A program made the translations under genes and the position numbers. The notes under the pieces were generated by a model. It was not told where the DNA came from. It made no database searches and saw only the letters and a program-made list of their open reading frames with translations. This document shows positions 17,100-58,389 of a stretch of 64,000 bases of DNA, piece by piece (the first letter of the stretch is position 1; each line of letters begins with the position of its first letter). Source of the stretch: Ceratodon purpureus (lineage: Eukaryota > Streptophyta > Bryopsida > Pseudoditrichales > Ditrichaceae). Where the stretch lies: positions 96,454,572-96,518,571 of the forward strand of contig CM026426.1 of NCBI GenBank assembly GCA_014871385.1, in the 5' to 3' direction.

Positions 17100-17114
17100 T
17101 TATCCCCCTTTTAG
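17100..17114 (-). other. Polypurine tract of the Gag-only element
   Basis: On the - strand the bases just before the 3' LTR read CTAAAAGGGGGATAA, a purine run in the position where plus-strand DNA synthesis is primed. The same tract precedes the LTR of Ty3#2. Confidence 0.7.
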
Positions 17115-17169
17115 TCAGCATCTGCCCTCAGATGCTCCGGCTTTCTAGTTTTATGTAGTTAGCTAAAAA

Positions 17170-38277: not shown

Positions 38278-41200
38278 ATGCCGCGAAGAGTAGAGGCCTG
38301 GGATCAGTGGTGGCAAGACTTGGGCGTGGTGGGTGCGAGGCCTCAGAGACAGGTTAGGTGTAGAATTTGTAATGTGACTATTGTGTACTGTCGGGATAAA
38401 ATGTTCGCCCACTTTGGATACAGACCTTTAGGTGGTCCAGGTAACTACGGTATACAAATTTGCAGGTTGCTGAGTGCGCGGGTGAGGAGGTTGTTCGTAG
38501 ACTGCGGAGGTGAAGTTCCTAGAAGAGAGCCCAATGATGTCATGACATTGGCTTGGGAGGTGACGGGGTCCCAGATCCGGTAATACCTCAAGCTCCTGAT
38601 AACGAGGGGGCGTGCGCGAATGATGGGCCAGCTATGCAGGAGCCCGATATGGCACCCCAGGGTTCTCCACCCAAAGAAATGCGTCAAGTGAATATTGTGC
38701 AAGGATTCAAAGCTTCCACGAAGCTTCGATTAGATAAAGTCTGGGCGACGGCATTCTACGAAGCCAATATCCCATTCAACGTTGTTAAGCATCCTGCCTT
38801 CATTAACGCCGTTTGGGAAACAGTGCGATCCCGCTTCCCGACATACCTGCCGCCATCGATGAATGCTATTCGCATAAAACTGTTGAGCGCGAGAAAGGCG
38901 AAAATGGTGAGACAAGTAAAGGAACTCACGGGCAATTCCACAGAGAAATACGGTGTTACGATATGTGCAGACGGTTGGGACAACGTCCAGAGTCGTCCTC
39001 TTCTGAATGTTATCCAGAGTGGGACCAGGGGCAACGTTTTCCTTGGAACCATAGACACGACGGGACACTACAAAGATAGCGATTACATCGCTTCTCAGAT
39101 CCGTCCGTTTGTGGAACGGGTCGGACCGCAACATGTGGTCCAAGTTTGCACTGACAATGCTCCGAACATGCTTGGATCCAGTCGGATGCTCGAGACACGA
39201 TATCCTCACATTTATGTTCAAGGGTGTGCCGCACACTGCTTGGATCTGTTGCTCAAAGATTGGGGGAAGGAGGATTGGGTGAAGCACATAGTCAGAAAGG
39301 CGAGACTTATTTGTCTATGGGTTAGAAATCATCATTCATCAATGGCTTTGTTTCGCAGGATGTGTCCCAATCTGACCATCCGTTTGCCCGTTGAAACGCG
39401 GTTCGCGACGAATTTCATTATGATCGAGCGTCTTGTGGAACTTCGGAATGCATTTGAGAGAATGGTCATCGATCCGGCGTTTGCAGGTATTTTAGCAACC
39501 TATCCTGATGTGAACAGCTCAGCAGGGAAGAGGGTCCGCCTGATGCGGAAGTATGTGCGTGCGGACGGTTTCTGGAACACGTGCCATAACTTCTTATACA
39601 TGGTCATCCCACTAGTGAAGGCATTACGCCTTTTTGATGGGAAGGCACCTGCAATGGGCCTAGCTTGGAGGGCGATGTACGATTTGAAGAACCACGTCCG
39701 CAGTTTTTCCTCCCATCCGTTTAGATTGAACGCGGACCTGGCAGCAGACGCCATGGTCGCATTCGACCACAGATGGGCTATGATGTTGACAGATCTTCAT
39801 TAGGCAGGTGCGATGCTCAACCCGACCCTACGTGGATGGGCGCCACTTCATAACCACGAGGAGTCGAGGATCATTTTAACCGGGTTTTTCGCAAGTTATC
39901 CTCTAACGAGGAGAATTACGTCCAGATCCTTGTCCAGTATCAGGATTTCCTCGAGAATCGGGAGGCATTTGCTGATTCAACCGATCCCCAGGCGCACGGC
40001 ACTGCTATCCACGAATGGTGGGACGCAATGGGAGGTGGAGCCCGGGCTCTCCAAACAATTGCTAGACGTATACTTGGACAGGTTTGCTCCGTGTGTGCGT
40101 GTGAGCGCAACTGGAGCATGTACTCCTACGTGCACAGCAAGGTGCGCAATAGATTGAAACATGTACGAGCGGAGGACCTTGTGTATATCTACACGAACAG
40201 TAGACTCGTTCGTCACCGCCGGGCCCCGCGTCCGGCACAGTGGTATGGCTAAGAGGAGGTTCATTCCGACGATGACCTCGATGGCGAGGATCCGGACGAG
40301 GACGACGAGGAGGAAGACGTCGGACGGGGAGGAGACCATGTAGCGGACGATGTGGCGGACGATGCCCGCATGGATGGTGTCGGACAGGGCGGATTGGGCA
40401 TGGGCGGTGTCGGACTTGCGGACGACGATCCGCCCGAGAGCGACTTTGAGGAATCCGGATCGGACGACGCAGGATCTGACGGTGACAACGCTGGCAATGC
40501 CCGGATTGCCGAGCTCTTCCACAATATGTTCGACGCAGGACATCGCCGAGATGCGGTTGAAGATATCCTCCGCCAGGATAGTCGCGTCGGACGGCAGGCG
40601 TATGCTGGAGGTGAGCGTCGAGCTCAGATCCGATCAACGAAGCAAAAATACAGTCGGACAGAGGAGATGGTAGTCCGGCCCGGAGGATACCTATCGTCGA
40701 CACGGACTTCTCGCAGCCTTGGAGTGATTCTTTGTCATTTGGCCAGAGGGATTTCGACGAGAATCTGGCGAACATGGAGGGAGAGATTCGAACTGTTTTT
40801 CAGGAGGATTTACCACCTATCAATCGCCGGAGAGATGAAATAACGGAGGAAGATTCGAGAAGGAGGATGGCCGATTAGGAAGTTCAGACCCCGTCTGAGG
40901 AAATACGCCATCCCATAACTCGAAGCCTTGCTAGTACGTCCGGAAGTATGGCTGTAAACCAGCAACAGCCAGCTTCTGCCCTGCTCTCCACCCCCGTTGG
41001 TAGGGGTCACATCCTTCCGCAGCAGACCTCCGGCCGGGGACGCAGACGCCGAGCAGTAGGATCTGCTGTAACCAACGGTAGCCAGTCCGTTGTTCTGACC
41101 GCGTCTTCTTCACGCAGCCGGCCCGTGCGGAGAGGGGTTCCATCTACGTCAATCCGGGACCCTGCGGCACGTGCATCTAGTTGCACGACTGGGGAATGAG

Positions 41201-41520
41201 TGTCCAGTGGTCCTGCAAGGGGAAGTGTTATCCAACGAACAACAAGAGGTATAAAGCGAAAGAAAAGGTTCCAGGGGACTGCGTCGCGTTTTGCCCCGTA
41301 CGAACCTGACAACTCCGAAGGTAGACCAGAACTCAATGAAAATGGAATACGCGACCCCCAAGGATCCCGTCCAACGAAGAAGCTAGTTATCACCAGAGAC
41401 GATGAGTTGCGGCTAAGCACTAGAAGTCCGCGGTCTGATGACGACATGAGCACAGATGAATCCGAGGAGGACCGACGTTGCGACGAAGCCAACGACCCAA
41501 CTGTTCGGATCCGAGAGTGA
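38278..41520 (+). pseudogene. hAT transposase of element C, broken
   Basis: Starts with a BED-type zinc finger (VRCRICNVTIVYCRDKMFAHFGY). Then, after a frameshift near 38545, the DUF659/hAT core: YGVTICADGWDNVQSRPLLNV, VVQVCTDNAPNM, CAAHCLDLLLKDWGK and, after more lesions, CACERNWSMYSYVHSKVRNRL. Lesions: frameshift 38545, TAG 39801, frameshift near 39890, TAA 40250, frameshift near 40650, TAG 40876, TGA 41197. The catalytic D, D and E are still readable. An acidic and then basic tail of several hundred codons follows the hAT domain, as in the open copy at 49408. Element C could move only with transposase from elsewhere. Confidence 0.85.
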
Positions 41521-41537: not shown

Positions 41538-41545
41538 ATACTACG
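41538..41545. repeat. 8-bp target-site duplication ATACTACG, left copy of element B
   Basis: ATACTACG immediately precedes the B terminus and recurs immediately after its right terminus at 55889-55896. Eight bases is the standard hAT duplication. Confidence 0.9.
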
Positions 41546-41570
41546 CAGAGTTGTCATAATGGACGGACTG
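41546..41570 (+). repeat. Left terminal inverted repeat of element B
   Basis: CAGAGTTGTCATAATGGAC followed by GGACTG. Pairs with 55864-55888 with mismatches only at bases 3, 4, 20 and beyond 23. The CAGAG start is typical of hAT ends. Confidence 0.88.
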
Positions 41571-41696
41571 GCCAAAAAATTGTCGTGTAGTCACGTGACG
41601 AACGTGACGGACAATTATCGGACGGACGCTTATCGGACGGGCTCCCGACCGCGAGCAAAATTACTGTCCTCACAGTTTACTACTGTTTACCATGGG

Positions 41697-42020
41697 TGGC
41701 GCCCGTCGTCGTGTCCGCGCGCGTCTTTGCGCCTGTTTGCGCCGGTCATATGTGGTTGTTCGCGCCCGTCGTCAGTCTCGCGCGCGCGCGGTGATCGCGC
41801 CCGATTACCCTCGCCCGATCAGGGTCGCCCGCGCCCGTCGCGCGCTCGCTGTGATCGCGCTCGTCGTCTGTCTCGCACGCGCACAGTAATCGCGCCCGAT
41901 TACCCTCGCCCGATCACGGTCGCTCGCGCCCGTATCTTAGGAATAACGTGCTCGCGCCCGTAGCAGCCTGCGCGCGCCCAACCTGCTCGCGCCCACACTG
42001 TCAGCCCCGTGAGTATAAAT
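41697..42020 (+). promoter_or_regulatory. CGCGCCCG array and TATA box of the small helical gene
   Basis: About 300 bp of repeated GCGCCCG cores, nearly all on the + strand, with spacers of 3-25 bases such as GTCGT and GATTACCCT. It ends 8 bp before TATAAAT (42014-42020). The downstream leader holds CTTCAACAGCCCAAGGGTAG at about 42071, shared with the next gene. Confidence 0.7.
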
Positions 42021-42141
42021 TGCCACCCTCCTCCACTGATTTCGCACCCCCTCACTTTGTGCATTTTGCCTTCAACAGCCCAAGGGTAGCTGATTGCTTA
42101 GTGCTACGGTGGGTTTCTCAACATTCGCTGTACCGTCCAAC

Positions 42142-42546
42142 ATGAATTCCAACGCCTGCAATTGCCAACAAATCAAGTCCATTATGAGTTTAACGAATGG
42201 TGCCACTCCACCGGGCACTGCACAGCGAACGGACACAGTTATTTGGTCAAAGCTGGAGCGACTCCGTCAACTGATTGAGTTCTTCAAGGATTGGATCTCT
42301 CGCCGTGACAAATTGGTGGCCTACGCAGAGAATGGACGCCCTCTGCCTCCAACCACTGAACAGCAGTTGGCAACTCAAGCGACTGTCGAAGAACTTGACT
42401 GTGAGATTGGCGATCTCATCAAAGAACTGAAGAAGGAGAAGGCAATACTTTGTGTCCCCAATATTGTCTCTAGTGCTCAAACGAACCATTTTGAGACGCA
42501 CTTGAAAGACCTAGAGGACCGGTACCTAGAGTGCATGGCACTGTAA
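42142..42546 (+). CDS. Small charged helical protein, 134 residues
   Basis: Chosen start is the ATG at 42142, about 120 bp after a TATA box. A Cys/Asn-rich start (NSNACNCQQIKSIM), then two long amphipathic stretches (KLERLRQLIEFFKDWISRRDKLV and TVEELDCEIGDLIKELKKEKA) typical of a helical bundle or short coiled coil. No catalytic motif. AATAAATAAAG at 42578 looks like a poly(A) signal. No family recognised; as the first gene inside element B it could be an accessory factor. Open and unbroken. Confidence 0.6.
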   Translation: MNSNACNCQQIKSIMSLTNGATPPGTAQRTDTVIWSKLERLRQLIEFFKDWISRRDKLVAYAENGRPLPPTTEQQLATQATVEELDCEIGDLIKELKKEKAILCVPNIVSSAQTNHFETHLKDLEDRYLECMAL

Positions 42547-42655
42547 TCGACATTACAATGAAGTGATACATTTTCAAAATAAATAAAGTATTTTTTTTTA
42601 ACTCTGAATTTGCAAGTTCTCTTTGGTTAATCTGATTTTTAACAGTGTTCTAGGT

Positions 42656-43038
42656 TGTGGTGGCGCCCGTCCTGGCCCAGTGCTCGCGACCGTCCATTCA
42701 GCGTTGGCGCCCGACGGTCGCGCCCGTGCAATTCGGATCGCGCCTGAATAATATCCGCGCGCCCGCGTCGACGTCCGCGCGTGCGCCCCTTCGGTACCCG
42801 GACGACGCCCGCGCGCGCCCGACGAAGACCGGGTCGGTACCCGCTCGCGCGCGGTAAAACCCGCTCGCGGCCGTCATATACCCGCCACTGAACCGCTCGC
42901 GCCCGTTGATATCCGCGCGGGCGCGGACGGATACACGGCCGAAACCCCGCCGTCGGTGCCCGCGCGCGCCCGTCGGGTTTCCGCTCGCGCCCGTAGCAGG
43001 TTGTTCGCGCCCGTTCCCTGGCGCCCGTGACTATAAAA
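42656..43038 (+). promoter_or_regulatory. CGCGCCCG array and TATA box of the coiled-coil/RING gene
   Basis: About 370 bp dominated by CGCGCCCG and GCGCCCGT, ending directly at TATAAAA (43032-43038). The leader contains CTTCAACAGCCCCCGGGTAG near 43091, matching the leader of the preceding gene over about 30 bases. Confidence 0.7.
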
Positions 43039-43316
43039 GGGCGATTTCCCACCTCATTTTGCACTCCCCCCCCCCCTTTGAGCACCTTGTCTTCAACAGC
43101 CCCCGGGTAGCTGATTGCGTGGTACTCAGGTGGGTCCCAGCACTCTGACACGTGTCCTTGTTTTTGTTCTCCAGAACTCTATGGTGTCTGTGTATTACAT
43201 TTGAGAATTTTGTAAAAGTTTATAATTTGTAAATGTGATTGAGGTTCTGGGGTAGTCGTAGGCTTTTAATTTTGCACCTTCGGAAGACTTCGAAGAACGA
43301 TCTACCTCGAGCAGAT

Positions 43317-45871
43317 ATGGAACGGCAACAACCAAATCAGCCAACGGCGGCAGAGCAGAGGAAAAAACAAAAGGATGCGGGACGGGCCAGGCATGGAAAC
43401 CTCCAACATAAGAGGGTCCACGTCTTATTGAATCCAGCAAAGCTGGCATTCAGAGGGTGGGAAGCTGCATCGCAACCGTGGACTCTAGCAACGTGTGAAC
43501 AATTCATTGAATGGTGCCACATTGGGAAGTTATTTCCGTTGCACCGTCATAAAAACAATCGTCAATCAAACAAGGCGAACATGAAATATTGCAAGAACCG
43601 TCAGCTTGGGAGGCGGAGTTTGGAGGTGTACCAGGTCCTATACAACCAGGCGATGAACGATAGAAATGAGGTTCCGCTCTTTATTTGTAGGATGGTATAT
43701 GCCGAGGTAGTGCTTCATAGGCAGGTGGACTGGAGGACCATACGGTTGACTCCTAGCGTCCAACGGCGTCCACATGAGATGGCGATACCTACAGGGGTCC
43801 TGAGATTTCCAGATGTGGACTGGGCATACTTGGATGATCCTGAGGATCAAGCGCCTGTTGAATGGAGTGACTCAGGGGAGGATAATGATTCTGATGGTAC
43901 GGTAGACCGTCCCCCTCAGTCACAAACAAGAGCAGCGACTAGTGCTAGAATCACACGGTTAAAAAAGAAGGATCCTGTGCTAGCTGCCTGTTTGTCGACG
44001 AGGAATTGTGCACCGCCTGCAAATCCTACTGGACCAGGTATTCCTCATCAGGCTCCTCTAGAAATCGTAGGGGGCCCGAGCAATGTTGATGTTGCTCCTC
44101 CTATATTAGTTCCATAGATTGCGGGCCCGAGCAATGTTGATGTAGCTCCTCATGTACTGAATCCATAGATTGCGGGCCCGAGCAATGTAATGGAAGATGA
44201 TGACACTGGGTTTGCAGATGAGTTGGAGGCTACAATAGCCGCCGCTGATGCCCAGGGCCTGCAAGCCGATGCATTGCAGAAGGAGCTGGAAGGAAAAAAT
44301 GCAATAATTTCTGAGATGGAGAAGACTATCCAGAACTTGTACGAAGAAGCTGATAGGATGAATGAGATTATACGGAAGCAGAATGAAGAGATTTCGCAAC
44401 TTAGATCTGCGAAGACTCCGACTTACGTACCCGAGGCAAGCCAAGCTCCAATCCCTGGTAGCCCTGGAATGAACGAGGAAGACGTGAATGCCATCATTGA
44501 ATCGGCCACGCACGGTCTCCTGGAAGATACCCTGGTCCGAGTTCCCCGTAAGCCAATCATTCCATTCGCGTCATCAAGTCAAGTGATGCACCTCCCCCAG
44601 CGGCAAATCATGTTCATAGATTCTCAAGAGACGGAGGACTCTTTGGGATTTCAACAGCCATCGGTACCCACTGTCTCCGAATTGCAAGCTACCAACGGGA
44701 TGCTCAGAAAGTATCTGATCGAGATGAGCAGACAGTACTACCAATGGAAGATTGCATGCATCATGAACGTCGACCGTTTCAGACAGATGCACGATGAGTT
44801 CAAGAAGATTGACCGCGGTTACCTCCAGCTTAACTCCAAGAGAGATTTCGGACTTACCTCGTGGGCAGATCGAGATGAAATGTTCCCTGACGACATACCG
44901 ATGATTGGTAAAGCAATAGATTGGACGCAGTTGGAGTGGAAGTACAAGACCGCCATATCCAATGAGAAGATCCCTAAAAATACAAAGCCAAGATTGCTCT
45001 GGCCCAATCCAGCGAAGTATGTGTTGGATGGAACCAAGTGTGCAATTTGTTGCAATCTATTTGGGCCAGAGGGGGGCTGGCAATTGGGATCCTGTCAATG
45101 CATGTATCATCCACAATGCTTGATTTCCCATGCCTTGATACGTCGGCGGTGTGCAGTATGTAAGGCCCCCTTAATAAGCGTTTTTATGAGCAATTCGGCC
45201 TAGTGAATTGGATGCCACCGCATTGGGAGCTAAATAAGGAAAATACTCCTGACTTTCCGGACAAGTGGGGTGAAGACTTCATTTGGAATTGGCTTATGGG
45301 AATGCACCAGTCCTATGTTAAACAAATGAGCAATCAGTGGAGGTGGGACCAGAAACCTGCGGAGATTGTACGGATCTGCCACGAACTCATCTAGGCCGGG
45401 ACGGAGGAGGAACTCGAGGGAAGGAGGAATTTCTTCTACCAAGTGCTACATGGGTATTGGGATATTCAAACTTGTACATTCCAGTACGGCCGCCATCCTC
45501 TTGGATTTAAGTGGAATTCCAAAGGGGAGTTGGTTGCGGATCAGATCAAGGAGTTGCACGACATGACTGCAAAGGATTTCCGGATCGCTGAGGAAGTACA
45601 AACCGCGGAATCTGAATGGGATATATTGTTCAAGAATCAAGCCGTGGATTTCCTATGTGCGGAAGTGGCTCCGGATGTCGTAACAGTGCTCCGTCGGATG
45701 CGCAACAACAACTTCATGGAAGCAATGCTTGGAGGAGATGGCATAGCGAAGAGAATCCGTTCTGCCAAGCGGAAACTCATTGCCAACGATGGGGCAGAAA
45801 GTAGTGCAGCATGTACCTCTCGTGCTCGACACGATGAGGGTGGATCGAGTTCCTCCGCACCGGGCACGTGA
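43317..45871 (+). pseudogene. Coiled-coil/RING gene of element B with three TAGs and a frameshift
   Basis: From ATG 43317: conserved N-terminal domain (LAFRGWEAASQPWTLATCEQF, then MVYAEVVLHRQVDWRTI), an acidic linker, a 51-bp repeat carrying TAGs at 44115 and 44166, then in the same frame a coiled coil (about 44190-44400) and a RING-like finger (CAIC, SCQCMYHPQC, CAVC; 45037-45165). A one-base shift between 45150 and 45200 leads to VNWMPPHWELNKENTPDFP, then TAG at 45392 and an open stretch to TGA 45871. Each TAG fits a former CAG. The N-terminal domain matches 61745 and, more weakly, 7983-9476. Either a recent pseudogene or a gene needing stop suppression. Confidence 0.65.
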
Positions 45872-46284
45872 CGTCGTGGAGATCCATGAGTGAAGTCCAC
45901 ATTCTGTAAAAAGATATAGGAATATAAATACATGTAGATGGCATAGGGGTATGGATAGGTTTGGGATTACATTCACATGTTTAATGTTTGATAAACTCAA
46001 ACAATGGATGATAATTTGCTTTTGTAAATCATTGTCGTGATTCTCAAGACGCTTTTATGCTCCCTTCATAATACATTGGCCTCCCTTTTTTTGATTGCCA
46101 ATCATGTTATTCATTCCGCCCGTTGTCTCATCTCCTTCCATCGTATGATAAGTGTATAAATATCTCTGTTGCACACCAAAATGTTTAATATGGTCAGTGG
46201 ATTTAAGTCATGCTAAGAGAACTTAAGTTATTGTAAGTGTATTTAACTTATGGACTGAATTTTATGTTACGTGGATTTGAACTC
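45872..46284. other. 3' spacer of the coiled-coil/RING gene
   Basis: AT-rich; short TTAAGT-rich words (46195-46250). No gene or repeat recognised. Confidence 0.4.
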
Positions 46285-46890
46285 TGATCGCGCCCGCATG
46301 GTCGCGCGCGTTTGCGCGCGCCCGTAGTGTGTGTACTCGCGCGCGCGCAAACCTGCCCCAGCGAGAGTAAACCCAGGATTACGCCCGCACGTGCGCGCGC
46401 GCACGAACTGCTCGCGCCCGTCGCACCAACAGCGCGCGAACGGATACTGAAATGTGGAACACCCGACGGTGTCTCCGTCGTTTCGCTCGCGCCCGATTCC
46501 GCATGCGCCCGCCCGATTTTGCGCGCGCCCGACATTGCACGCGCGCGAGCACTGCAACCCGGGTGAGGGACTAATTTCTCTCCCCAAACCCCCTTTTCCA
46601 TTTGCACGCGCGCGCATTCGCGCGCGCGTCCTGATCGCGCCCGTCAAACCAACCGCGCGCGCACGGTCGCGTGATTCTGAATCTCTTCCTCCCCCCACAA
46701 TGTCTCCCGCAGTCCGTTCGCGCCCAATTTCGCGCGCGCCCGATTGCGCGCGCCCGTCAATACTCGCGCGCGAGCACTGCAACCATATCATGGAACTAAT
46801 TTCGCCCCCCGAACTCCCTCGTTCCATTTGCACGCGCCCGTACGCGCTCGCGCCCATCAATGCGGGCGCCTGTTTTGCACGCGCCCGAGC
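46285..46890. repeat. CGCGCCCG array without a clear gene, partly a 240-bp tandem
   Basis: Dense GCGCGCCCG words. Two units of about 240 bp (roughly 46450-46685 and 46686-46910) share GAGCACTGCAACC, GGACTAATTTC/GGAACTAATTTC and CCATTTGCACGCGC landmarks. Unlike the arrays before genes, no TATA box or ORF follows. It may be a relic promoter or a site for protein binding. Confidence 0.65.
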
Positions 46891-47069
46891 ACTCCAACAA
46901 CATCACTCAAATAAATTTTATGATTCCACCACTCTCCCATCCGATCCCCTTGTTTTTATTTAATATTCCCACACTCTCTAAATTTTTAATTTTATTTTTT
47001 CCCCTTCTTTGAACACTACGTTTTTATTTAACTCCTAATCTCATTTTGTCTGTTCATTTTTATGATATA

Positions 47070-47140
47070 CTAAAGCTAGCAAATCTTCATGTCGACCCAG
47101 AGTCACATGAAGATCCTCTAAGCGCCTGAGTTCAGCTGAT
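47070..47140 (-). pseudogene. 71-bp fragment of a coiled-coil coding sequence
   Basis: On the - strand this reads SAELRRLEDLH-like, and it matches 57507-57577 (+ strand) with six differences in 71 bases. It lies between simple repeats with no surrounding gene, so it is a remnant of a shared gene in an inverted position relative to the other copy. Confidence 0.5.
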
Positions 47141-47182
47141 ATATATCCACTATTTGTTTTTTTTCCACTGTTTTTTTTTTCC

Positions 47183-48040
47183 CCCCTTCGTTGAACACTA
47201 CGCTTCTATTTAATTCCTTCTCTCATTTCGTTTGTTCAATTTTATAATTCCACCTCTCCCCCATCTTCCCGCCTTATTTTTATTCAATACTTCTACGCTC
47301 TGTAATTTGTTTTATATTTTTTTTTCCCCTTCTTTGAACACTACGCTTCTATTTAATTCCTTCTCTCATTTTGTTTGTTCATTTTTATAATTCCACCTCT
47401 ACTCTATCCTCCCGCCTTATTTTTATTCAATACTCCTATGCTCTTTAATTCTTTTTTTTTTTTTTTTTTCCCCCTTCGTTGAACACTACGCTTCTATTTA
47501 ATTCCTTCTCTCATTTTGTTTGTTCATTTTTATAATTCCACCTCTCCTCTATCCTCCCGCCTTATTTTTATTCAATACTCCTACGCTCTTTAATTCCTTT
47601 TTTTTTTTTTTTCCCCTTCGTTGAACACTACGCTTCTATTTAATTCCTTCTCTCATTTTGTTTGTTCATTTTTATAATTCCACCTCTCCTCTATCCTCCC
47701 ACCTTATTATTATTCAATACTTCTACGCTCTGTAATTTGTTTTATATTTTTTTTCCCCCTTCGTTGAACACCACGCTTCTATTTAATTCCTTCTCTCATT
47801 TTGTTTGTTCATTTTTATAATTCCACCTCTCCTCTATCCTCCCGCCTTATTATTATTCAATACTTCTACGCTCTGTAATGTGTTTTATATTTTTTTTCCC
47901 CCTTCGTTGAACACCACGCTTCTATTTAATTCCTTCTCTCATTTTGTTTGTTCATTTTTATAATTCCACCTCTACTCTATCCTCCCGCCTTATTTTTATT
48001 CAATACTCCTATGCTATTTAATTTGTTTTTTTATTTTTTC
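47183..48040 (+). repeat. Satellite-like tandem, unit about 143 bp, six copies
   Basis: Landmarks TTGAACACTACGCTTCTATT recur at about 47191, 47334, 47479, 47621, 47764 and 47907 (spacing 142-145). Each unit has a T-run of variable length, CCCCTTCGTTGAACAC, TTATAATTCCACCTCT and TCCTCCCGCCTTAT. A diverged copy begins near 47001. No coding potential. Confidence 0.85.
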
Positions 48041-48207
48041 CTTCATTTTATAAATTTGAATGCCTATTCGTTTACTTTTTTTTTCTTTTTTTTTCTTTTG
48101 GGTACTCCAATCTCCCATACTAATGTATGGTATTTCAGTGTAGTCCATTCTCTCCCTTAAGCTTTATTTTTTTTTATTTTTTTTGAACTTACGACTTTTA
48201 AACTTCA

Positions 48208-48512
48208 TTGCGCGCGCCCTGTTGGATCGCGCGCGTCCGAACGCGCCTGCAGGCGCCCGCGCGGTGGCGTCTGCAGTCGACCCATTGAACCTGCCCACGC
48301 GCGCGCGCGCACACTTGCAACCGCGCCCGCAAGTACGCGTGCGCGCCTACGTGTTCGACGCGCGCGCGCAACCTCCCCGACGTGCGCTCGCCCTGCTCGC
48401 GCCCACCCGTCCGCGCGCGCGCGACCTCCCCGACCTGCGCTCGCCCTGCTCGCGCCCACTCGTTCGCGCGCGCCTGCTCGCGCCCCACGCCGCCTGCGCG
48501 CGCGCTCGGGGT
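48208..48512. repeat. CGCGCCCG-type array, very CpG-rich
   Basis: About 300 bp of GCGCGCCC, CTCGCGCCC and CGCGCGCG words, including an internal near-duplicate around 48390 and 48445. A TATA box and gene do not follow directly; the array before the transposase begins 330 bp later. The frames open through it on both strands are artefacts of base composition. Confidence 0.6.
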
Positions 48513-48837
48513 TTCAACTGGATTAACGCAGTAACTAGTAAAATTTATCCCATATTTTGAGTTAACACTGCCTGAGGTTAGCTTAAAACGACTTACCTTC
48601 CAGTGGGTGGGCAGAAACATGAAGGGCGAGATGACAGCCTGCTCCAGTTCTTAGACATGTGTGAATGGGGTGGGTAGTCCTCCCGCACTCTCATGTTTCT
48701 CAATCTTTTCACTTAAATAGGATTCCTTTTATGTAGATGTGCACGTGTATGTAGTTTACACACTTTGATTTATTTAAATTTTATTCATTTTTCCCTCTCG
48801 ATGTTACTTCTTCTCGTTGAATTCAGGTGGCCAAATC

Positions 48838-49164
48838 GATCTCGGCCGTTTGATCGCGCCTGCACCCGACCGCCCGTGCGCGCCCGTGCCTGCATTCGCC
48901 CGCCGCTCTCCGCCCGTGCGCGCCCGTGCCGGCATTCGCCCGCCGCTCTCCGCCCGCGCCCGCCCGCTTCGCGATCCAGCGCTCGCGCCCGCCCCCGCTC
49001 GTCTTCCACCGCGCGCGCTATCCGCCACGCGGCCTTCAATCGAGCGCACCCACCTGTGCCCGCCCGTTCGCGTCGGAGCGCGCCCGATCTTCTGGTGCGC
49101 GCGCGCCCGTTCGGTCGCGCCCGTCCGAACAGTACTCGCCCGGTCGCGGGCGGCAGTATATAAA
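48838..49164 (+). promoter_or_regulatory. CGCGCCCG array and TATA box of the hAT transposase
   Basis: Array of CGCGCCCGT and CGCCCGC cores from 48855, with a near-duplicate of about 53 bp (48876-48928 and 48929-48960). It ends at TATATAAA (49157-49164). The leader shares TTGGGTGGGGGGAAT with the leader of the kinase gene. Confidence 0.7.
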
Positions 49165-49407
49165 CTGCCCCCTTGATTTGACATCCACCTTACCTCCTTG
49201 CGTGCTTCATGTCCTGGGTCTCCTTGAGGGCTCCTTGCTTGAAACTGTTAGCTTGGGGAGACACTTGGTTTGGGTGGGGGGAATGTAAAAATTCTTCTCT
49301 CCATAAATCAATGTGTCAAGCACTTTTCAGACACACTAAGTTATTCAGATAATAATCTTTTGGTACTTCTGGTCCTATTAGTCCCGATACTTCCCTAATC
49401 ATTCACT

Positions 49408-52400
49408 ATGGATCCGGTTGAAGCGGTTGAACCGGTTGAAGTGGTTGCTCCGGCTAGAGCCATTCCAAGACTCGGTACGAGAGAGTGGGCACCATGGTTT
49501 TCGGTCAAGCTCCAGGAAGGGTCACTGTCACATAAGGTAGCCCAATGTGTGTATTGCAGGACCAAGTTTTCGTACGTGAGGCATAGGTGCTTTCAGCATT
49601 ATGGTTGGGACCAGTCCAATCTCTCGAGGGTTTGCCAAAAGGCACCTACCGTAGTGAAGAGGAAGTTTCAGTTTTGCGCTGGAAAGATTCCCGGCCCTTT
49701 GACACAGGAGGAGGTGGATGGTATCAGGCCAACGTTCCCCGCGTCAGTTCAACGTGGAACATCCAGTGCTTCCACACACGGCACTCTGTACGGTGGATCC
49801 GAACCCTCGTATAATGATACCGAAGAGGACCGAAATGTCTCCAGTGTTGCACCTAGTAGGGCCGGTTCGAATACCACTAGGAGCTTGCGGCAACAGGACA
49901 TGAGTGAAGCACTCCAGATTGCCAAGTGGAAGGAGCTGGACATGTTGTGGTCATCCTTCTTTTACGAAGCCAACGTCGCATTCAACGTGGCCAAGCACCC
50001 AGCATTTATTAAGGCGGTGAGCACAACCGCGGCTGCCGGATTTAACTACGGTCCTCCTTCCTATGACGCGATGCGAACAACGCACATCAAGGAAAAAAAG
50101 AAGTTAATCAAGGCAAAGATTGATGAACGTACGAAAACCTCGACCGAGTTATACGGGGCTACCATATGCTCCGATGGTTGGGATAATGTGAATCGCCGAC
50201 CGTTGATGAATGTCATGCTAGTATGTCCGGCAGGCGATGTATTTCTTGGGTCTGTTGATACGACTAGCGAGAAGAAGTCAATGGGATATATTGCCGGGGA
50301 GATGAAGAAATATATTCGAGAAATTGGCCCTCAGAATGTTGTCCAGATTTGCACGGACAATGTAGCCAACATGCTTGGCGCCATGGATAATATCCTAGAG
50401 GAGTTTCCCCACATGTACAAGCAGGGCTGTTGTGCCCATATTCTAGATCTTCTTATGGAGGACTGGGGCAAGGAAGTCTTTGTGAAGGATTTGGTCGCCA
50501 AGGCTAAACACGTGTGTCATTACATTCGGAGACATCATGTTCCCATGGCCCTTTTCCGCAAATTTGAACCGAAGTTGTCCTTGGTGGTTCCCGCTGAAAC
50601 CAGATTCGCTTGTAACTATCTCATGATAGCGCGCCTTATGGAGGTTAAATTTGCTTTGGAGCAAGTGGTCATGGCAGCGGAGTGGTTCGAGTATGTCGAC
50701 GGTTTATTCAACCAAACCAAGGGGGTGCGTAATCATGCACGCGCAAGCGTAGTGCGTCAAACAATTCGTGACGATGGGTTCTGGCATCAGTGTGACAACT
50801 TCACGCACCTAGTGAAACCAGCCCTAGTAGCTCTTAGAACCTTCGATGGAAGCCAGCCGGCAATGGGCAAGGCATGGATTACAATGAGCAACCTAAAAGA
50901 TCACGTGTACAATCTCCGAGGATCCCCTTGCTTTTTCCCACCTGTCATGGCAACAAGGATGGAGCTGCGGTTCGACCGTAGATGGGACATGATGCATACC
51001 GATCTTCATTATGCCGCGGCGCTCTTGAACCCTTGGGTTAGAACGCATAAGGGCTTACAAGTCATAGGAGAAGCGAAGGCGGCTCTCAATCGGGTGTTTC
51101 GTCAGGTGGGTGGCCAAATGGGAATTCCATTTGGCGATCTTATGAAAGAGATGATCAAGTTCGACGAGGGACGTGGCCCTTACAGCCCCGAAGTGACCAT
51201 CGATATCAGAGGTTTGAATCTGGAACCCCATCAATGGTGGCAGAGGATTGGAGGGGGGCCCTTGGCAGTCATTGCGAAGCGCATTTTATCTCAGGTCTGC
51301 TCCGCCTCATCGTGTGAACGGAATTGGAGCATGTATTCGTTTGTCCACAACAAGGTACGCAACCGCCTAGGGTTGGAGAAGTCTGAGGCCTTGGTGTACA
51401 TTTATACGAATAGCAGACTCCTCCGCGAACGCCCAAAGCCCAACCCCCTCAGATGCTACGAGAACAATGCATGGTCAGAGGAGTCAGATCCGGAGAGAGA
51501 TCCAAGCGAAGAAGAAGGAGATGACGACGATCATTACATACCAGTTGACCACGCAGGCAGTGGGGATGATGATGTCTGGGGACATGATAACGTCGACGTT
51601 AACACAAATGGGCAAAACGACGGTAATGGCAACGGACGCGGTGACGCTAACCGCAACAATCCGCGTGACCGCAACAACCACGATGATAACGGTGATGCGT
51701 ACGACTTCAACAATGAACCAGAATATAACCAGGGAAACCCGGACATGAACATCTATGGAGACGAATTACCCACACTCCCGGTATTTGATGAAGCGGCTAA
51801 TGCAGAAGGAAGAGGCGCTCGTGACGAAAGAGATGCTATTCCAGTCCAAATCAATCCAGAGAACAATGACGGGGTTGCAGATGATTCATCCAGCGAGGAC
51901 CATCTTGGCAACGATATCCATGCTGGCGATGATGATGAGGACAGTGACGAAGGGGGTGATGGAAGTCATGGACGGGCTGTAGATGGACCTCATTGGACCG
52001 GCCTCGTTAGTGGGGAGGGCAATTGGGGAACCGTTCCGGCACAAGGCGACTCAAGCTTGTTTCAAGAGATTCCTCCTGCTCACGAGAGAAGGACCGTGCA
52101 CGCAATCCCCGCACAGACTGTGGCTCCATCCCAACCCACTGGTACGAGGGGTATCGAACCAGATACAATCGTGGATGGAGGCCTGGCTCGGAGGCCCACA
52201 AGTTCAATGGGCGCAAAAATAGCTCAACTCCTTAGATCATCAGCAGCGGCGAGGCCTCCACTCAATCGAGCTGGTGGTAGTCGGCGTGGTGCCTCCACCG
52301 CCAAGCTAGTCCCCGTGGCGCCAGCTATAGACGACGCCGTACAGAATGTGGCCCAACGTGGTGCGAAGAAGTCCACAGACAAGGTTGTTAGGAAACCACC

Positions 52401-52854
52401 ATCACAAGAACCCCGCGGAGGAACACGAAAGTCAAGCAAAAGAACTGGACCTGATCCCCTTCCATTCTATACAGGGTACACTGAAGGGGGGCCTTCTTCT
52501 GGAACTGGGGTTGTTCGCACACGCATAATCAGTGAGGATGGCATCACAGCCATCGGTAATTCCGGAAAGGAGAGGCCTATGAAGCGCCTAGTAAGTGCCA
52601 GAGATGGCAATACGGGTGAAGTTTCCATGCAAGTGCGCAATATTACATCGGAGGTGGAAGGAGAGGTACAAGCTCCAGTGGTCGGAGCTCCTAAGGATGA
52701 AGGTGACAACGAGCACTCAGAGGAGGGAGACCCGGATTGCGATGAGGCGCCAGATGACGAAGATGTGATAATCCGGCACGAATTGGGGCCCACTGTGGCT
52801 CGGAAAAGACAATCTTCACGCAAGAAGAAGCCCCGCAAAGCAAGGAGAGTCTAG
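49408..52854 (+). CDS. hAT-family transposase of element B, 1148 residues, apparently intact
   Basis: Single-exon frame from ATG 49408 to TAG. BED-type finger at about 30-75 (CVYCRTKFSYVRHRCFQHYG). DUF659/RNase H-like catalytic core with D256 (ICSDGWDNV), D317 (QICTDNVANM) and E637 (SCERNWSMYSFVHNKVRNRL), the DDE set of hAT enzymes; the last is in the hAT dimerisation segment. After residue about 690 comes an unusual 450-residue tail: Asp/Asn-rich and acidic (700-880), then Pro/Ser/Arg-rich, ending in KRQSSRKKKPRKARRV, a probable nuclear signal. The role is cut-and-paste movement through the terminal and subterminal repeats. It is the only gene in the window able to mobilise element B, and perhaps C. 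No lesion seen. Confidence 0.92.
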   Translation: MDPVEAVEPVEVVAPARAIPRLGTREWAPWFSVKLQEGSLSHKVAQCVYCRTKFSYVRHRCFQHYGWDQSNLSRVCQKAPTVVKRKFQFCAGKIPGPLTQEEVDGIRPTFPASVQRGTSSASTHGTLYGGSEPSYNDTEEDRNVSSVAPSRAGSNTTRSLRQQDMSEALQIAKWKELDMLWSSFFYEANVAFNVAKHPAFIKAVSTTAAAGFNYGPPSYDAMRTTHIKEKKKLIKAKIDERTKTSTELYGATICSDGWDNVNRRPLMNVMLVCPAGDVFLGSVDTTSEKKSMGYIAGEMKKYIREIGPQNVVQICTDNVANMLGAMDNILEEFPHMYKQGCCAHILDLLMEDWGKEVFVKDLVAKAKHVCHYIRRHHVPMALFRKFEPKLSLVVPAETRFACNYLMIARLMEVKFALEQVVMAAEWFEYVDGLFNQTKGVRNHARASVVRQTIRDDGFWHQCDNFTHLVKPALVALRTFDGSQPAMGKAWITMSNLKDHVYNLRGSPCFFPPVMATRMELRFDRRWDMMHTDLHYAAALLNPWVRTHKGLQVIGEAKAALNRVFRQVGGQMGIPFGDLMKEMIKFDEGRGPYSPEVTIDIRGLNLEPHQWWQRIGGGPLAVIAKRILSQVCSASSCERNWSMYSFVHNKVRNRLGLEKSEALVYIYTNSRLLRERPKPNPLRCYENNAWSEESDPERDPSEEEGDDDDHYIPVDHAGSGDDDVWGHDNVDVNTNGQNDGNGNGRGDANRNNPRDRNNHDDNGDAYDFNNEPEYNQGNPDMNIYGDELPTLPVFDEAANAEGRGARDERDAIPVQINPENNDGVADDSSSEDHLGNDIHAGDDDEDSDEGGDGSHGRAVDGPHWTGLVSGEGNWGTVPAQGDSSLFQEIPPAHERRTVHAIPAQTVAPSQPTGTRGIEPDTIVDGGLARRPTSSMGAKIAQLLRSSAAARPPLNRAGGSRRGASTAKLVPVAPAIDDAVQNVAQRGAKKSTDKVVRKPPSQEPRGGTRKSSKRTGPDPLPFYTGYTEGGPSSGTGVVRTRIISEDGITAIGNSGKERPMKRLVSARDGNTGEVSMQVRNITSEVEGEVQAPVVGAPKDEGDNEHSEEGDPDCDEAPDDEDVIIRHELGPTVARKRQSSRKKKPRKARRV

Positions 52855-53185
52855 ACTGTGGTCACCTTTTTAGCGCATGAAGTAGCAGTTAATCTAAACA
52901 TACAATGTACCGGCTAAAAACCAAAAAAAATACTATGTTATTCTTAATGTTTTTTTTTTTTTTTTTGGTAGCACCTTCTTATTACGTAGACTTATACTGT
53001 TACTTAGAGTCAACCTAGTTCATTATCACACACTCAAAGGAATTGTATGGTTGTGCTCTGTATTATTTTTTGTGCGCTAAATGCGGTTAATATATCTCCA
53101 TTGAGTAATTTCGCAGTGAATTTTCTTGGTATTTTGTTCAATATACGAGTATACCGTAACCGAACCTGTACAGTGTATGTAACGC
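52855..53185. other. 3' spacer of the transposase
   Basis: AT-rich with a T-run of about 18 near 52950. No gene or structured repeat recognised. Confidence 0.4.
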
Positions 53186-53548
53186 TGCATATCCGGGCGC
53201 GTGCACTGGGACGGGCGCGTACAGGAAGGCGGGCGAGTGCACGGAGTCGGGCGCGTGCGCGGGGACAGGCGCGTGCACGGTCACGGGCGCGTACAGCGTG
53301 CTCGCGCGTACAGATAACCGGCGCGCGCAGGGGTACGGGCGCGAGCACGCGGGCACGGGCGCCTGCGGCGTCGGGCGCGCCCGATGTGGGCTGACGGGCG
53401 CGCACCTGGGCACGGGCGCGGGCAGTCCCCCGTGCGAACGCGGTGGACGGGCGCGTGCGGATGGGCGCATGCGGACGGGCGCGTGTGGAGGCCCTGTGCG
53501 CGCGCGTGTACGCGCTTACGGGCGCGAACAGCCGAGGGGAGCATAAAA
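53186..53548 (+). promoter_or_regulatory. Inverted CGCGCCCG array and TATA-like box of the kinase-like gene
   Basis: Same motif as the other arrays but on the opposite strand (CGGGCGCGTGCAC and similar on +), so its function does not depend on orientation. It ends at CATAAAA (53542-53548). The leader has TTGGGTGGGGGGGAATTT, shared with the transposase leader. Confidence 0.65.
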
Positions 53549-53722
53549 GGCGCCCCTTAACCCTTATTTTCTACTTTTTAAAGTCTCCTCTCCCAGGTGG
53601 CTCCTTGTCCTAGCCCGTGACTCCACGTGCTCTGCTTGGAACTGCAGGAAGTGGGTGCAACCAGATTGGGTGGGGGGGAATTTTTTTTTTTTTTATTGTG
53701 TGTCCAGTTCATTATTCCAACT

Positions 53723-55291
53723 ATGTCGGTCTCTCGTGGATCCGGGAAACGTCCCGCCTACGTAGATCTTGATGCTCCTGTAGATGAGGTGGTGGCAACC
53801 TCCACAGCACCGACCGTTACAGGCTCAAACCCGTCATCAAGCTCATCGGGAAAGAAGAACCGGAAGTCGGCGAGTGAGAGGGACCCGGACTACCCACCTC
53901 CTCGGTACCAGGAATTCGTTAGAGAGCTAGCATTGGAGTGGTACGGATGTCGGAAACGGGAGATGATTACCCGTACGTACGTTGAGAAGGGGGAGACCGG
54001 AATTAAGGACTTGAAGACCCATTTGGAAGAGTATTTGTGGAAGAAGCTGGACCTTTCCGAGAGATATAATGATTGTATTCATTACTTTCATTTCCCTAAG
54101 TGGATGGAGCAACAAATAACAACAAACACTACGAACATTGTGCATGTCTTTGAGTGTGTCAACAAGAAGCCCAAGGAGGGCTACTCGCGGGCGCAGAAGG
54201 AGGAGATAGAGAAGCTCAAATATGTCCAGGATTCGTGCGTGAGATTCTCGAATAATAAGACGAGGGCGAGGCCATGGCTTGAAGCTGGATTGAAAAGCGC
54301 AATGGAGAAGTACTTGTGGGGAGCAGTGGTTGGAGTTCCGAGAGGGGTCAAGTTGGTTCCGCTGTCAAGCACAAAGGAAGGCGGTTATGGTAAAGTCCGA
54401 AAATTACGTATTGTTGGCATGCAAACCATACCTGAGACTTGTGTCTTTGCGGGGAAGAAGTCCAAGGCTCCAGACGAGACCCAGAAGCGGTACAAGACAT
54501 CAATAGAAGCCATGGTTTGCAGGATTGACCATCCCGGCGTTATTAAGTTTTTTGCGGTCAATGACTGGACGATGGAAGCCTACACGCTTTGGTGGAATGG
54601 GGATTGCCTGTAGAATTTTCTGCACAAGTTCAATTCAAATATCGGTGAGGGTACTCAGAACCGTAAGATCCACAAGCAAACCGATATGCCCATGGAAACA
54701 CGTGACCATGTTAAGGCCTTCCGCACCCATAGGGCCAAGCTAGCTTGGGCACTGATCTGTATTATGGACCGGGTCCATAAGGGGTATTTGCAGCATAATG
54801 ACATCTCCCCGGGAAACGTCTTGCTTCACTTCCCAGAGGATAAAGTGAGCGAGGTTTACATTGGAGTATGCGACTGGGGCCTTGCAAGTCGGGTGTGTGA
54901 TACAACTCCTTCAAGGTACGGTTACCCAAGTGATGAGGCGCGTACGGAAGCCTTCAAGGAACGTGGTAGTTTTGTGGCTCCGGAGTTGTGGTACACTTAT
55001 GGTAAGCCAAATTCGGAGACCTCATATGAAACTATAAGGAGGAGACATCTATATACGCAGGCTGCCGATGCGTACTCGGTTGGAGTGGTAGCAAATATGA
55101 TTTGGAAGGACGAGGACGACTTCGACCTTTTCAAGGATACAGCGGGGAAGGCTAGATTTGCGGTGGCGTTGAAGGAGCTCACAAATCTCGATCCCAAGAC
55201 CCGCTCCACCTTGCGTTTGGTCCACGCTACTCTAACAGCCCCTCCCTACAATTTCCAAATCCCAGAGTGTTGTTATCGCAAACATATTTAG
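53723..55291 (+). pseudogene. Protein kinase-like gene with a single in-frame TAG
   Basis: From ATG 53723 one frame runs to TAG 55291 with one internal TAG at 54611-54613. N-lobe: Gly-rich loop EGGYGKVRKL (about 54380) and FAGKKSK with the likely ATP-binding Lys, then MVCRIDHPGVIKFF. C-lobe: LQHNDISPGNVLL (catalytic Asp and Asn; 54794), VCDWGLAS (DFG position is DWG), GSFVAPELW (APE) and AADAYSVGVV. The HNDISPGN loop recalls the HRDIS-GN signature of FunK1-type kinases of fungi. Full-length but for the TAG, which would replace a residue between the two lobes (CAG to TAG fits). An N-terminal 130-residue region is of unknown fold. Could be a fresh pseudogene or need read-through. Confidence 0.75.
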
Positions 55292-55489
55292 AAGTAGGCA
55301 AGTAGTGACAACAATGTGATATTCTCAGTTCTCCATAAGAGGGGACATTTTTTGTAAGTGGTTAACTGCCACAATTTTGCAAAACTTTTCAATAAACATT
55401 GCACTTCCCAATTGCCCTCTTCTGAAATACATGCCCTCTCTTGTCATTTATGATTTTGCCCGATGTCGCTCTTTCCCTACTAACCTGCA

Positions 55490-55748
55490 GCGCTCGCGCC
55501 CGACCGCCGGCGCCCGATGCAGCGCGCTCGCCCGAATGCACGCGCCCGATCCAAGCTCGCGCCCACATGACCGCGCCCGATAAGTGTGCTCGCGACCGTC
55601 AACTGGATCGCGCCCGCAGCGACGCTCGCGCCCGTTCGCAGGCGCACGCGTGCGGCCGGAACGACGCACGCACCCGTGACATCGCGTTCGCGCGGACGCT
55701 CGCGCCCGTCGTCCCGCTCGCGCCCGAGATCGCGCTCGCGCCCGCACT
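55490..55748. promoter_or_regulatory. CGCGCCCG array at the right end of element B
   Basis: Nine exact GCGCCCG cores in about 260 bp, most preceded by CTC or GAT. No gene follows inside B; it lies about 140 bp from the right terminus. It could be a promoter reading outwards into element C, or a transposition or silencing-control site. Confidence 0.6.
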
Positions 55749-55863
55749 AATTCAGCGCTAGGTAAATTCGTTTTACCCTTACCGTGAGTCAACTGGTCAA
55801 CGCCCTTATGTGACGGACACGGGGGTCTGTCTTGTCACCATGACGGACTAACGGACTAACGGA

Positions 55864-55888
55864 CGGTCGGTCCATTATGACAACCATG
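55864..55888 (-). repeat. Right terminal inverted repeat of element B
   Basis: Reads CATGGTTGTCATAATGGAC on the - strand; 15 consecutive bases identical to the left terminus. CGGAC repeats lie just inside (ACGGACTA twice, 55841-55867). Confidence 0.88.
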
Positions 55889-55896
55889 ATACTACG
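55889..55896. repeat. 8-bp target-site duplication ATACTACG, right copy of element B
   Basis: Exact copy of 41538-41545 abutting the right terminus. Confidence 0.9.
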
Positions 55897-56838: not shown

Positions 56839-57282
56839 GGGGGGGGGGGGGGGGGGGGGGGGGGCGGTGGGGTAGTGCTACCTCACAATGCGGTAAGTTG
56901 CGGTACGTTGCGGTAAGTTGCGGTAAGTTGCGGTACGTTGCGGTACGTTGCGGTAAGTTGCGGTACGTTGCGGTAAGTTGCGGTTAAGATTTAATTGAAA
57001 CGCCTTTCATATCCAAAACTTATGGCCTACATATGTTAAACCTTTTGCATACACGCCAACCAACTTTGTCATACCTAGTTAAATCGTAGTATAATTTATA
57101 CGGTCGTTATATTTTTTAAGGAAATTTAATTGTCCTCATCGGAATTGTAGTTGGACTTCTATATTATTTTTAAGTCTACTTTCGCTCTTATGCCATCTAA
57201 TTGATCATTGCCACCAATTAATTTTATTTTTAATATCGTTCCAATACTCCTGTTAGTAATCACTCTGTATTTATCGATAGAT
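56839..57282 (+). repeat. Short copy of a duplicated unit: 26-G tract, decamer array, 300-bp tail
   Basis: A run of 26 G, then CGGTGGGGTAGTGCTACC, then nine exact 10-bp units CGGTAAGTTG/CGGTACGTTG (56891-56980), then a 300-bp AT-rich tail ending GTATTTATCG. The unit is repeated at 57288-58389 with an additional 640-bp internal segment, so this is a shorter derivative. Confidence 0.85.
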
Positions 57283-57287
57283 TGGGG

Positions 57288-58389
57288 AAGGGGGGGGGGG
57301 GGGGGCGGTGGGGTAGTGCTACCTCACAATGCACATGCAGTCGTCTCTCTACTTCATTTCCTCATGTTATCCGTGTGCACATAGCTCCGCTTAGTTGCGA
57401 GGTTCGGCGAAGGGAATTTGTCATTGCCGTTCCATTTACAACGAACGTCTTCTCCAATGATGGCCATGTCTTCTGCTACATTTGAAACAATGGATATTGA
57501 CGAATCATCAGCTGAACTCAAGCGCTTAGAGGATCTTCAGGTGACTTAGGGTCGACTTGAAGATTTGCTGGCTTTAGTATATTAGCTTTAGTATGATATA
57601 GCCAATTGCAAGCCCTGCTGCTCCCGACGTTAAACACATCAAAGTTTAACATAAAGTTTAACAAAAGATACATGTATTTGGTCAAATATGAATTAAAAAG
57701 GTAAAGAGAAACGTATAATAAACACATCAAATTTAACATTGCTAAAGAACTCAATTTGTTAAAAGTCGTAAATTGTTTGTGAATCATTCTTTGAATACAC
57801 AAAATATTTAATCGTCATCCAAGAACAATAATGACGCTAAAAACTTGTAACTTTAGCAAATAATTATAGTATAGAGAGGTTGGGCTTTTTTACTACCATT
57901 AGATTGGACGTTGTCGTACCACTATACTCGTCAAGCAATGTGGCAACTTACTATTTAAAGCAAGTTACTTTACATTACGTTGCGGTAAGTTGCGGTAAGT
58001 TGCGGTTAAGTTGCGGTAAGTTGCGGTACGTTGCGGTAAGTTGCGGTAAGTTGCGGTACGTTGCGGTAAGTTGCGGTACGTTGCGGTAAGTTGCGGTTAA
58101 GATTTAATTGAAACGCCTTTCATATCCAAAACTTTTGGCCTACATATGTTAAACCTTTTGCATACACGCCAACCAACTTTGTCATACCTAGTTAAATCGT
58201 AGTATAATTTATACGGTCGTTATATTTTTTAAGGAAATTTAATTGTCCTCATCGGAATTGTAGTTGGACTTCTATATTATTTTTAAGTCTACTTTCGCTC
58301 TTATGCCATCTAATTGATCATTGCCACCAATTAATTTTATTTTTAATATCGTTCCAATACTCCCGTTAGTAATCACTCTGTATTTATCG
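57288..58389 (+). repeat. Long copy of the duplicated unit, with internal gene fragment
   Basis: Begins with a G-run of about 18, the same CGGTGGGGTAGTGCTACC, then 640 bp containing a short frame (MAMSSATFETMDIDESSAEL, then KRLEDLQVT and a TAG, 57464-57552) whose end matches 47070-47140 inverted. Then come the decamer array (57979-58098, with a few 11-bp units) and the same 300-bp tail. Only a few differences between tails are seen, so the duplication is recent. Confidence 0.8.

Follow-up and report, generated by a model that had tools for sequence, protein, structure and literature searches.

A hAT element usually consists of one transposase gene between two ends. The hAT transposase binds subterminal repeats. 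Gene capture is common among plant DNA transposons. Accessory enzymes are reported to be conserved and passed between families of DNA transposons, such as the fungal hAT7 and IS3EU (PMC12730594). In the VANDAL/VANC anti-silencing systems, DUF1985 is named for the VANC-type gene (PMC5735166). No multi-gene plant hAT was found among the listings of the literature searched, largely papers outside subscription.

We analyzed a window of 64,000 nucleotides from contig CM026426.1 of Ceratodon purpureus. It contains a hAT element at positions 41546-55888 (14,343 bp), enclosed by an exact 8-bp duplication, ATACTACG (Table 1). The element starts with CA and finishes with TG. The core of its terminal inverted repeats (TIRs), GTTGTCATAATGGAC, lies at 41550-41564 on the forward strand and at 55870-55884 on the reverse strand. 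With up to two mismatches allowed, these are the two matches of the window, against 0.09 expected. The sequence ATACTACG itself is found four times in the window (0.66 expected), so the target-site duplication (TSD) call depends on position and not on rarity. The original prediction of a full-length hAT, with inverted ends beginning with CA and the same 8 bp on both sides, was borne out, and its termini, duplication and coordinates were exact.

The 15-mer core occurs 181 times forward and 183 times reverse in the genome, compared with 0 and 1 for a reversed-letter control. Exact 8-bp duplications flank 18 of the 22 elements with both ends read. We read 11 elements whole, the window copy and 10 others. 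Nine of them have an exact 8-bp TSD, one has a duplication with a one-base difference, and one has none. Their gene content is identical (11/11). The elements of this family, family 1, measure 13.7-17.5 kb and have four genes. As proposed, a genome search recovered the same termini, and the 10 other whole-read copies share both termini and genes; copies ending elsewhere, or genes only outside such termini, were not seen among them. The window element is almost certainly one copy of a high-copy four-gene hAT transposon with the order A-B-T-K.

Ten TIR pairs are very long (27-62 kb), with an exact TSD in eight. We read one of the ten, C4:17568670, as a candidate element with more genes, and rejected it: an LTR retrotransposon is nested inside it, and the two 3.5-kb LTRs share 99.9% identity. 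Preferential insertion into relatives was not found in the flanks (198-435 bp; 42 of family 1 and 2 of the second family, described below), where 1 of 44 matched, the left flank of the window copy. Further out, a copy of the second family adjoins a B-like stretch (L074 1391-1801, 1.1e-9). No general rule of insertion into relatives follows from these two observations.

Table 1. Features of the hAT element and its flanks, in window positions.
Feature	Position	Strand	Evidence
Left target-site duplication ATACTACG	41538..41545	.	Sequence read
Left terminal inverted repeat CAGAGTTGTCATAATGGAC	41546..41564	+	TIR core match
CGCGCCC array before gene A, forward; TATAAA at 42014	41761..41994	+	
Gene A, 134 aa, open	42142..42546	+	ORF; no Pfam family at cut-off
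CGCGCCC array before gene B, mostly forward; TATAAA at 43032	42719..43012	+	
Gene B, coiled coil and RING, broken here	43317..45871	+	Stops, frame change, Pfam/profile
CGCGCCC array after gene B, forward	46289..46886	+	
143-bp minisatellite, 6 copies	47174..48039	+	Repeat analysis
CGCGCCC arrays before gene T, forward; TATA at 49157-49159	48213..49122	+	
Gene T, hAT transposase, 1148 aa, open	49408..52854	+	Pfam, profile, alignment
CGCGCCC array before gene K, reversed (11 reversed, 1 forward)	53195..53526	-	
Gene K, putative protein kinase, broken here	53723..55291	+	Pfam, alignment, model
CGCGCCC array at right end, forward, without a gene behind	55495..55743	+	
Right terminal inverted repeat, CATGGTTGTCATAATGGAC on the - strand	55870..55888	-	TIR core match
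Right target-site duplication ATACTACG	55889..55896	.	Sequence read

The genes A, B, T and K are all open, single-exon and on one strand in 5 of the 11 whole-read elements; the other six, including the window copy, are not open in all four. In the window copy, two in-frame stops (44115 and 44166) and a shift of frame near 45.2 kb disrupt B, and a stop at 54611 disrupts K. So, of the complete element with four coding units originally proposed, the four genes on one strand stand (a transposase with DUF659 and Dimer_Tnp_hAT, a kinase, a RING/coiled-coil gene and a small gene). Their completeness does not, with A and T alone open, and this copy is now defective. Among the copies, B (850 aa) is open in five and broken in six, and K (522 aa) is open in 10 of 11, in a sample biased toward good K matches. 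The median dN/dS values are 0.43 for A, 0.33 for K and 0.39 for T. B shows a value of 0.67 among young copies, that is, a weak constraint. The minisatellite is one of the chief causes of the differences in length among the elements.

T matches the Pfam families DUF659 and Dimer_Tnp_hAT, both above cut-off, and aligns with Hermes in a profile comparison (7.7e-9). More precisely, the C-terminal segment with the Glu is strong (31.8 bits) and the segment with the two Asp is weak (3.6 bits). In an alignment of T with 17 of its 43 relatives (18 rows), D256 and D317 are invariant and E637 nearly so. The Pfam scan gave no zf-BED match in T at E<=1. Its N-terminus has, by eye, a CxxC...H motif, and a BED finger is plausible there. 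For A, no Pfam family reached its cut-off.

B has 18 relatives in a metagenome-rich protein collection. Seven of its C3H2C3 zinc ligands are invariant in 14 rows (B and 13 of the 18), and the eighth is C or H; it is C in family-1 B. The profile match with RNF24 reaches 3.1e-8, and the RING scores 20.1 bits in Pfam, below the cut-off of 27.3. With these eight ligands, B is likely a RING-H2 ubiquitin ligase. Its AlphaFold model was poor (pLDDT 51.5) and was left out of the evidence.

In the same collection, K has 32 relatives, and for 22 the alignment spans 87% or more of the query; a search of viral contigs found no relative. The kinase site (Lys, Glu, HxD, Asn and Asp) is invariant in 22 rows, K and 21 of the 32. 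Pfam Pkinase matches at 31.2 bits, just under its cut-off of 31.7. The structure model of K (pLDDT 76.5) retrieves kinases with Foldseek at probability 1.00, with TM values by target of 0.20-0.69 among the 50 matches listed. Both the fold and the catalytic residues predict a protein kinase.

A second, related hAT family of the same genome also has B and K beside its transposase, and this recurrence is the new point. The genes B2, K2 and T2 are present in a different order from family 1, and K2 is 48% identical to K. In one copy of 11.7 kb, the ends are CAGGGTTGT and are flanked by an 8-bp duplication; the TIR of the family is CAGGGTTGTTCATGGGAC. For 31 of 57 B2 genes, a K2 is no more than 30 kb away, where 0.77 would be expected; 28 of these are divergent. 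Likewise, 24 of 44 T2 have K2 at 0.80-1.06 kb upstream, and there are 11 full sets. Among the scored copies, no K2 partner was seen for 26/57 B2 and 20/44 T2; with scoring limited to 81 out of 1367 K candidates, this speaks neither for nor against a pairing. Present with a transposase in this rearranged family as well, B and K are more than incidental passengers. They look like machinery of the element, and the earlier label of cargo undersells genes that recur in a rearranged family and have conserved relatives. We infer that a hAT lineage carries A, B and K permanently as accessory genes. They probably serve the element.

The intergenic regions carry arrays with the core CGCGCCC, which was found in none of the coding stretches examined. 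The base after the core differs by family: in copy E2 of family 1, 57 of 70 cores are followed by G, whereas family 2 has C after 45 of 47. In the E2 islands, CGCGCCCG occurs 57 times, against a mean of 4.0 and a maximum of 9 in 200 Markov trials. In both families the K array is reversed and the T array forward. The arrays contain short tandem repeats, and their number varies between copies. These family-specific variants recall the targets of VANDAL/VANC anti-silencing.

We propose that T cuts and pastes the element. A DNA-binding protein encoded by the element would recognize the arrays, those preceding genes as well as those at the element ends. The likeliest candidates are the Cys-rich N-terminus of T and the N-terminal domain that is conserved in B. 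Host chromatin or repair proteins might be the targets of the kinase and the RING-type ubiquitin ligase, and in this way the element would keep its own promoters active, in a self-targeted anti-silencing or activation system similar to VANDAL/VANC. We lean slightly toward this explanation as a whole, a four-gene hAT with accessory genes and array-based self-regulation; for the self-regulation taken separately, our confidence falls a little short of even. The weak constraint on B, the sub-cut-off Pfam scores of K and of the B RING, and the six whole-read copies with one or more genes broken weigh against the explanation. More tentatively, a plant hAT lineage may have joined a kinase and RING-H2 toolkit to a family-specific promoter motif code, as a self-recognizing regulon that defeats silencing. 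Anti-silencing of the VANC type might have been invented here a second time, independently, through phosphorylation and ubiquitination. The two claims together are possible, with the balance somewhat against them. Such a lineage would be old enough for its kinases to have diverged to 48% identity inside a single genome.

On the other hand, B, K and A could aid the transposition reaction or its timing instead of anti-silencing, and T would bind the arrays at both subterminal and internal positions. For example, T might be licensed by phosphorylation, or repair and competitor proteins removed. The subterminal binding of known hAT transposases and the arrays at element ends without a gene behind are consistent with this. 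However, most arrays are internal, before genes and in an orientation fixed by gene, and resemble promoter elements more than end-recognition sites. We consider this alternative rather unlikely.

At a similar level, the arrays might be merely GC-rich promoter DNA, spread within a family by tandem-repeat turnover and gene conversion, with no binding protein. The short tandem repeats and their different numbers between copies fit with this, and homogenization is able to carry one variant through the element. It is nevertheless doubtful, given a core common to families whose K proteins are 48% identical, an orientation kept gene by gene, and no copy in any examined coding stretch.

A passive origin is improbable. 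The genes A, B and K would be pieces of host genes, captured once and then amplified as Pack-type cargo. The frequent captures by plant DNA transposons and the broken, weakly constrained B would agree with it. However, B and K recur with a transposase in family 2, in another gene order and with K at 48% identity, which already goes part of the way to refuting this origin, and distant relatives keep the catalytic and zinc-binding residues. Finally, an assembly artefact or a chance pairing of termini has almost no probability: an exact TSD is missing from two of the 11 whole-read copies and from two of the long pairs (10 in all), yet the 18 exact duplications are at different sites, all 11 copies have the same genes, and the window expectation, the reversed-letter control and the TSDs of other copies rule out chance matches.

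In many copies, the kinase and the RING gene have stayed beside the transposase while the families diverged and their gene order changed. The need of a transposon for a kinase and a ubiquitin ligase becomes a testable question. Through the family-specific arrays, sequence-specific anti-silencing could be approached beyond VANDAL elements. Copies of the element lie on a very large contig; if this is a non-recombining sex chromosome, their distribution over it offers a record of the history of the family.

Lanisha (Maumus, McDaniel and Carey 2020) is a DNA transposon lineage named by authors who work on the Ceratodon genome. We rejected it as the identity of the element: it is described as EnSpm/CACTA-like, in a clade that makes 2-5 bp TSDs (PMC12730594). 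The element resembles instead the hAT superfamily (Ac, Tam3, Hermes and the plant DUF659 hATs) in its CA-starting TIRs, 8-bp TSD, DUF659 and hAT dimerization domains, and a D/D/E alignable to Hermes. It differs in its size and its four genes, compared with one gene in those elements. Likewise, T has 1148 aa with a long tail, whereas the three flowering-plant relatives found have 694-779 aa (23-29% identity).

Compared with VANDAL21/VANC, a Mutator-like system of Arabidopsis, the element belongs to a different superfamily. No VANC-type gene was recognized in it, and Pfam scans of A, T, the window B and K pieces and the intact B and K gave no DUF1985. The fungal hAT7, with a TET/JBP dioxygenase, and IS3EU, with an alpha-kinase, are similar as DNA transposons with conserved accessory enzymes. 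These are fungal, with TSDs of 7 or 6 bp and TET/JBP or alpha-kinase genes. K matches Pfam Pkinase, a kinase family different from the alpha-kinase of IS3EU.

The family-1 element and its relatives are a real hAT lineage, with multiple copies and multiple genes. New are a conserved accessory pair, consisting of a kinase and a RING gene, and a family-specific array code. No prior description of such a lineage was found in the literature searched, whose scope left out Repbase and most subscription papers. The original prediction described a hAT of about 14.3 kb, with inverted ends and an exact 8-bp repeat. The window copy agrees with it, measuring 14,343 bp and enclosed on both sides by the exact duplication ATACTACG. 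Other copies with the same ends, suggested as a check, do exist. The 15-base core of the terminal inverted repeat occurs genome-wide in 181 forward and 183 reverse copies (reversed-letter control: 0 and 1).

We read 10 further family-1 elements from end to end. The resulting set of 11, which includes the window copy, ranges from 13,675 to 17,501 bp, and a 143-bp minisatellite is the source of much of this length variation. Exact 8-bp duplications were found in 9 of these elements and in 8 of 10 terminus pairs lying 27-62 kb apart; adding one copy of the second family, the total is 18 of 22. By eye, no convergent terminus pair shorter than 13 kb appeared among 100 listed of the 364 core sites, so those 100 hold no short deletion derivative.

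Features of the window and of two loci on contig C4
Feature	Position	Strand	Remarks
Family-1 element	41546-55888		gene order A-B-T-K
Left terminus	starts 41546		CAGAGTTGTCATAATGGAC, window copy
Right terminus, inverted			CATGGTTGTCATAATGGAC, 2 mismatches vs left
143-bp minisatellite	47174-48039
Decayed hAT transposase, further family	38236-41517	+	59-67% to P0074 over main pieces; broken across several frames
Third-family B-like gene	61676-64000, continuing in L072	+	open frame, 1129 codons between stops; B-profile match
CGGACT-like repeats and TATAAATG	~60.9-61.5 kb		upstream of third-family B gene; by eye
LTR-retrotransposon-like region	16443-24534		direct repeats at 16443/24235, 97% over 300 nt
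1593-aa frame with gag domain	within 16443-24534	-	enclosed by the direct repeats
RNase H-like reverse-transcriptase piece	10338-11195
Two 300-nt copies, right flank	56894-58306		99% alike, spaced 1113 nt; both contain ATACTACG (- strand, 57085 and 58198), by position unrelated to the target-site duplication
Family-2 copy with both ends	C4:12215135-12226856		11,722 bp; termini CAGGGTTGT, duplication GCGCGGAC; K2 with one stop
B-like stretch, yet another family	L074 1391-1801 (C4:12226100-12228300)	-	1.1e-9; adjoins the family-2 copy

The element was inserted 17 bp past the last stop codon of the decayed transposase. The third-family B gene keeps its RING-type finger intact, and about 25% of it lies past the window end.

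The predicted transposase, kinase-like and coiled-coil/RING genes were all recognized: T by Pfam and profile, K by its residues and a model, and B by its finger and helix. T contains DUF659 (1.6e-34) and Dimer_Tnp_hAT (1.9e-5), each past the Pfam cut-off. An 18-row profile built from T and 17 of its 43 relatives matched the Hermes transposase at 7.7e-9. In this alignment the Glu segment is strong (31.8 bits), and the two-Asp segment is in register and weak (3.6 bits). K scores 31.2 bits against the Pfam kinase family, slightly under the cut-off of 31.7. Its catalytic residues are invariant across 22 aligned rows, and a profile search of PDB matched CaMKII and VRK1. The AlphaFold model (pLDDT 76.5) matched kinase structures at probability 1.00, with a helical N-terminal part (residues 50-197) ahead of the kinase domain. 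B combines a coiled-coil-like helix with a RING-H2 finger, which alone is under the Pfam cut-off. No Pfam family was above cut-off for A.

The original prediction also gave a complete element with four coding units. This stands for A and T, which are open in the window copy, but B (two in-frame stops and one frame change) and K (one stop) are broken there. Gene A (134 aa) has an open frame in every one of the 11 elements, against 10 for K (522 aa), 7 for T (1148 aa) and 5 for B (850 aa); these rates are biased because the sample was picked largely via good K matches. All four genes are open in five copies (E1, E2, E4, E6 and E10).

Median pairwise dN/dS values are 0.43 for A, 0.33 for K, 0.39 for T and 0.67 for B, from pairs with dS >0.02 that offer few, non-independent differences. 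About 8000 candidates were scored for each of K, B and T in a metagenome-rich protein collection. K has 32 relatives (29-69% identity, 22 aligned over at least 87%), B has 18 (best 96%) and T has 43 (best 97%). Two of them, P0018 (K) and P0087 (T), carry the label of a 'Bacilli bacterium' MAG, most probably because eukaryotic sequence contaminated the bin.

Querying the genome with distant relatives detected a second family, with counterparts B2, K2 and T2. We scored 81 of 1367 candidates for K2, 57 of 1710 for B2 and 44 of 1537 for T2; with scoring limited to these subsets, missing partners say little. K2 lies within 30 kb of 31 of the 57 scored B2 (0.77 expected). These pairs are divergent in 28 of 31 cases, 27 of them spaced 0.6-3.8 kb. 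K2 also lies 0.80-1.06 kb upstream of T2, on the same strand, in 24 of 44. Complete B2-K2-T2 sets number 11 among the scored candidates. Here B2 runs leftward and K2 and T2 rightward, in contrast to the order of family 1. Between the two families, identity is 48% for K and K2 and 40% for the T N-termini.

The window (G000:C6:96454572-96518571) belongs to an assembly of 362 Mb in 151 contigs. Contig C6 has 110.5 Mb, 30.5% of the genome; other large contigs seen have 18-29 Mb. Presumably, C6 is the one very large U/V sex chromosome of the moss Ceratodon purpureus. A review describes strong enrichment in repeats for the U and V of this species (PMC11062472). One identical score is common to 36 of the 150 K copies scored; C6 holds 6 of the 36. 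By identity to the window K, C6 carries 40 of 45 copies at ≤92%, 22 of 77 at 93-95% and 21 of 28 at ≥96%. C6 may thus retain divergent copies, with a near-uniform recent group spread over other chromosomes; this is an indirect sign only, because identity was taken against the window's own copy.

CGCGCCC occurs 61 times in the window on both strands, always within the element and outside its four genes. In copy E2, CGCGCCCG was counted 57 times in the islands, whereas 200 trials of a second-order Markov model gave 4.0 on average and never more than 9. For A, B and T, the array is followed by a TATA box. The K array is reversed, and no TATAAA stands behind it in the window copy. Family 2 also has a reversed K2 array and a forward T2 array, with arrays at both element ends. 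The core is followed by G in 57 of 70 cases in family 1 (copy E2), whereas in family 2 (four arrays, three loci, two copies) C follows in 45 of 47.

In VANDAL elements, according to PMC5735166, the element's own VANC protein binds such motifs in tandem repeats and induces methylation loss. The CGCGCCC arrays seem to be a solution of this type, with a putative binding protein.
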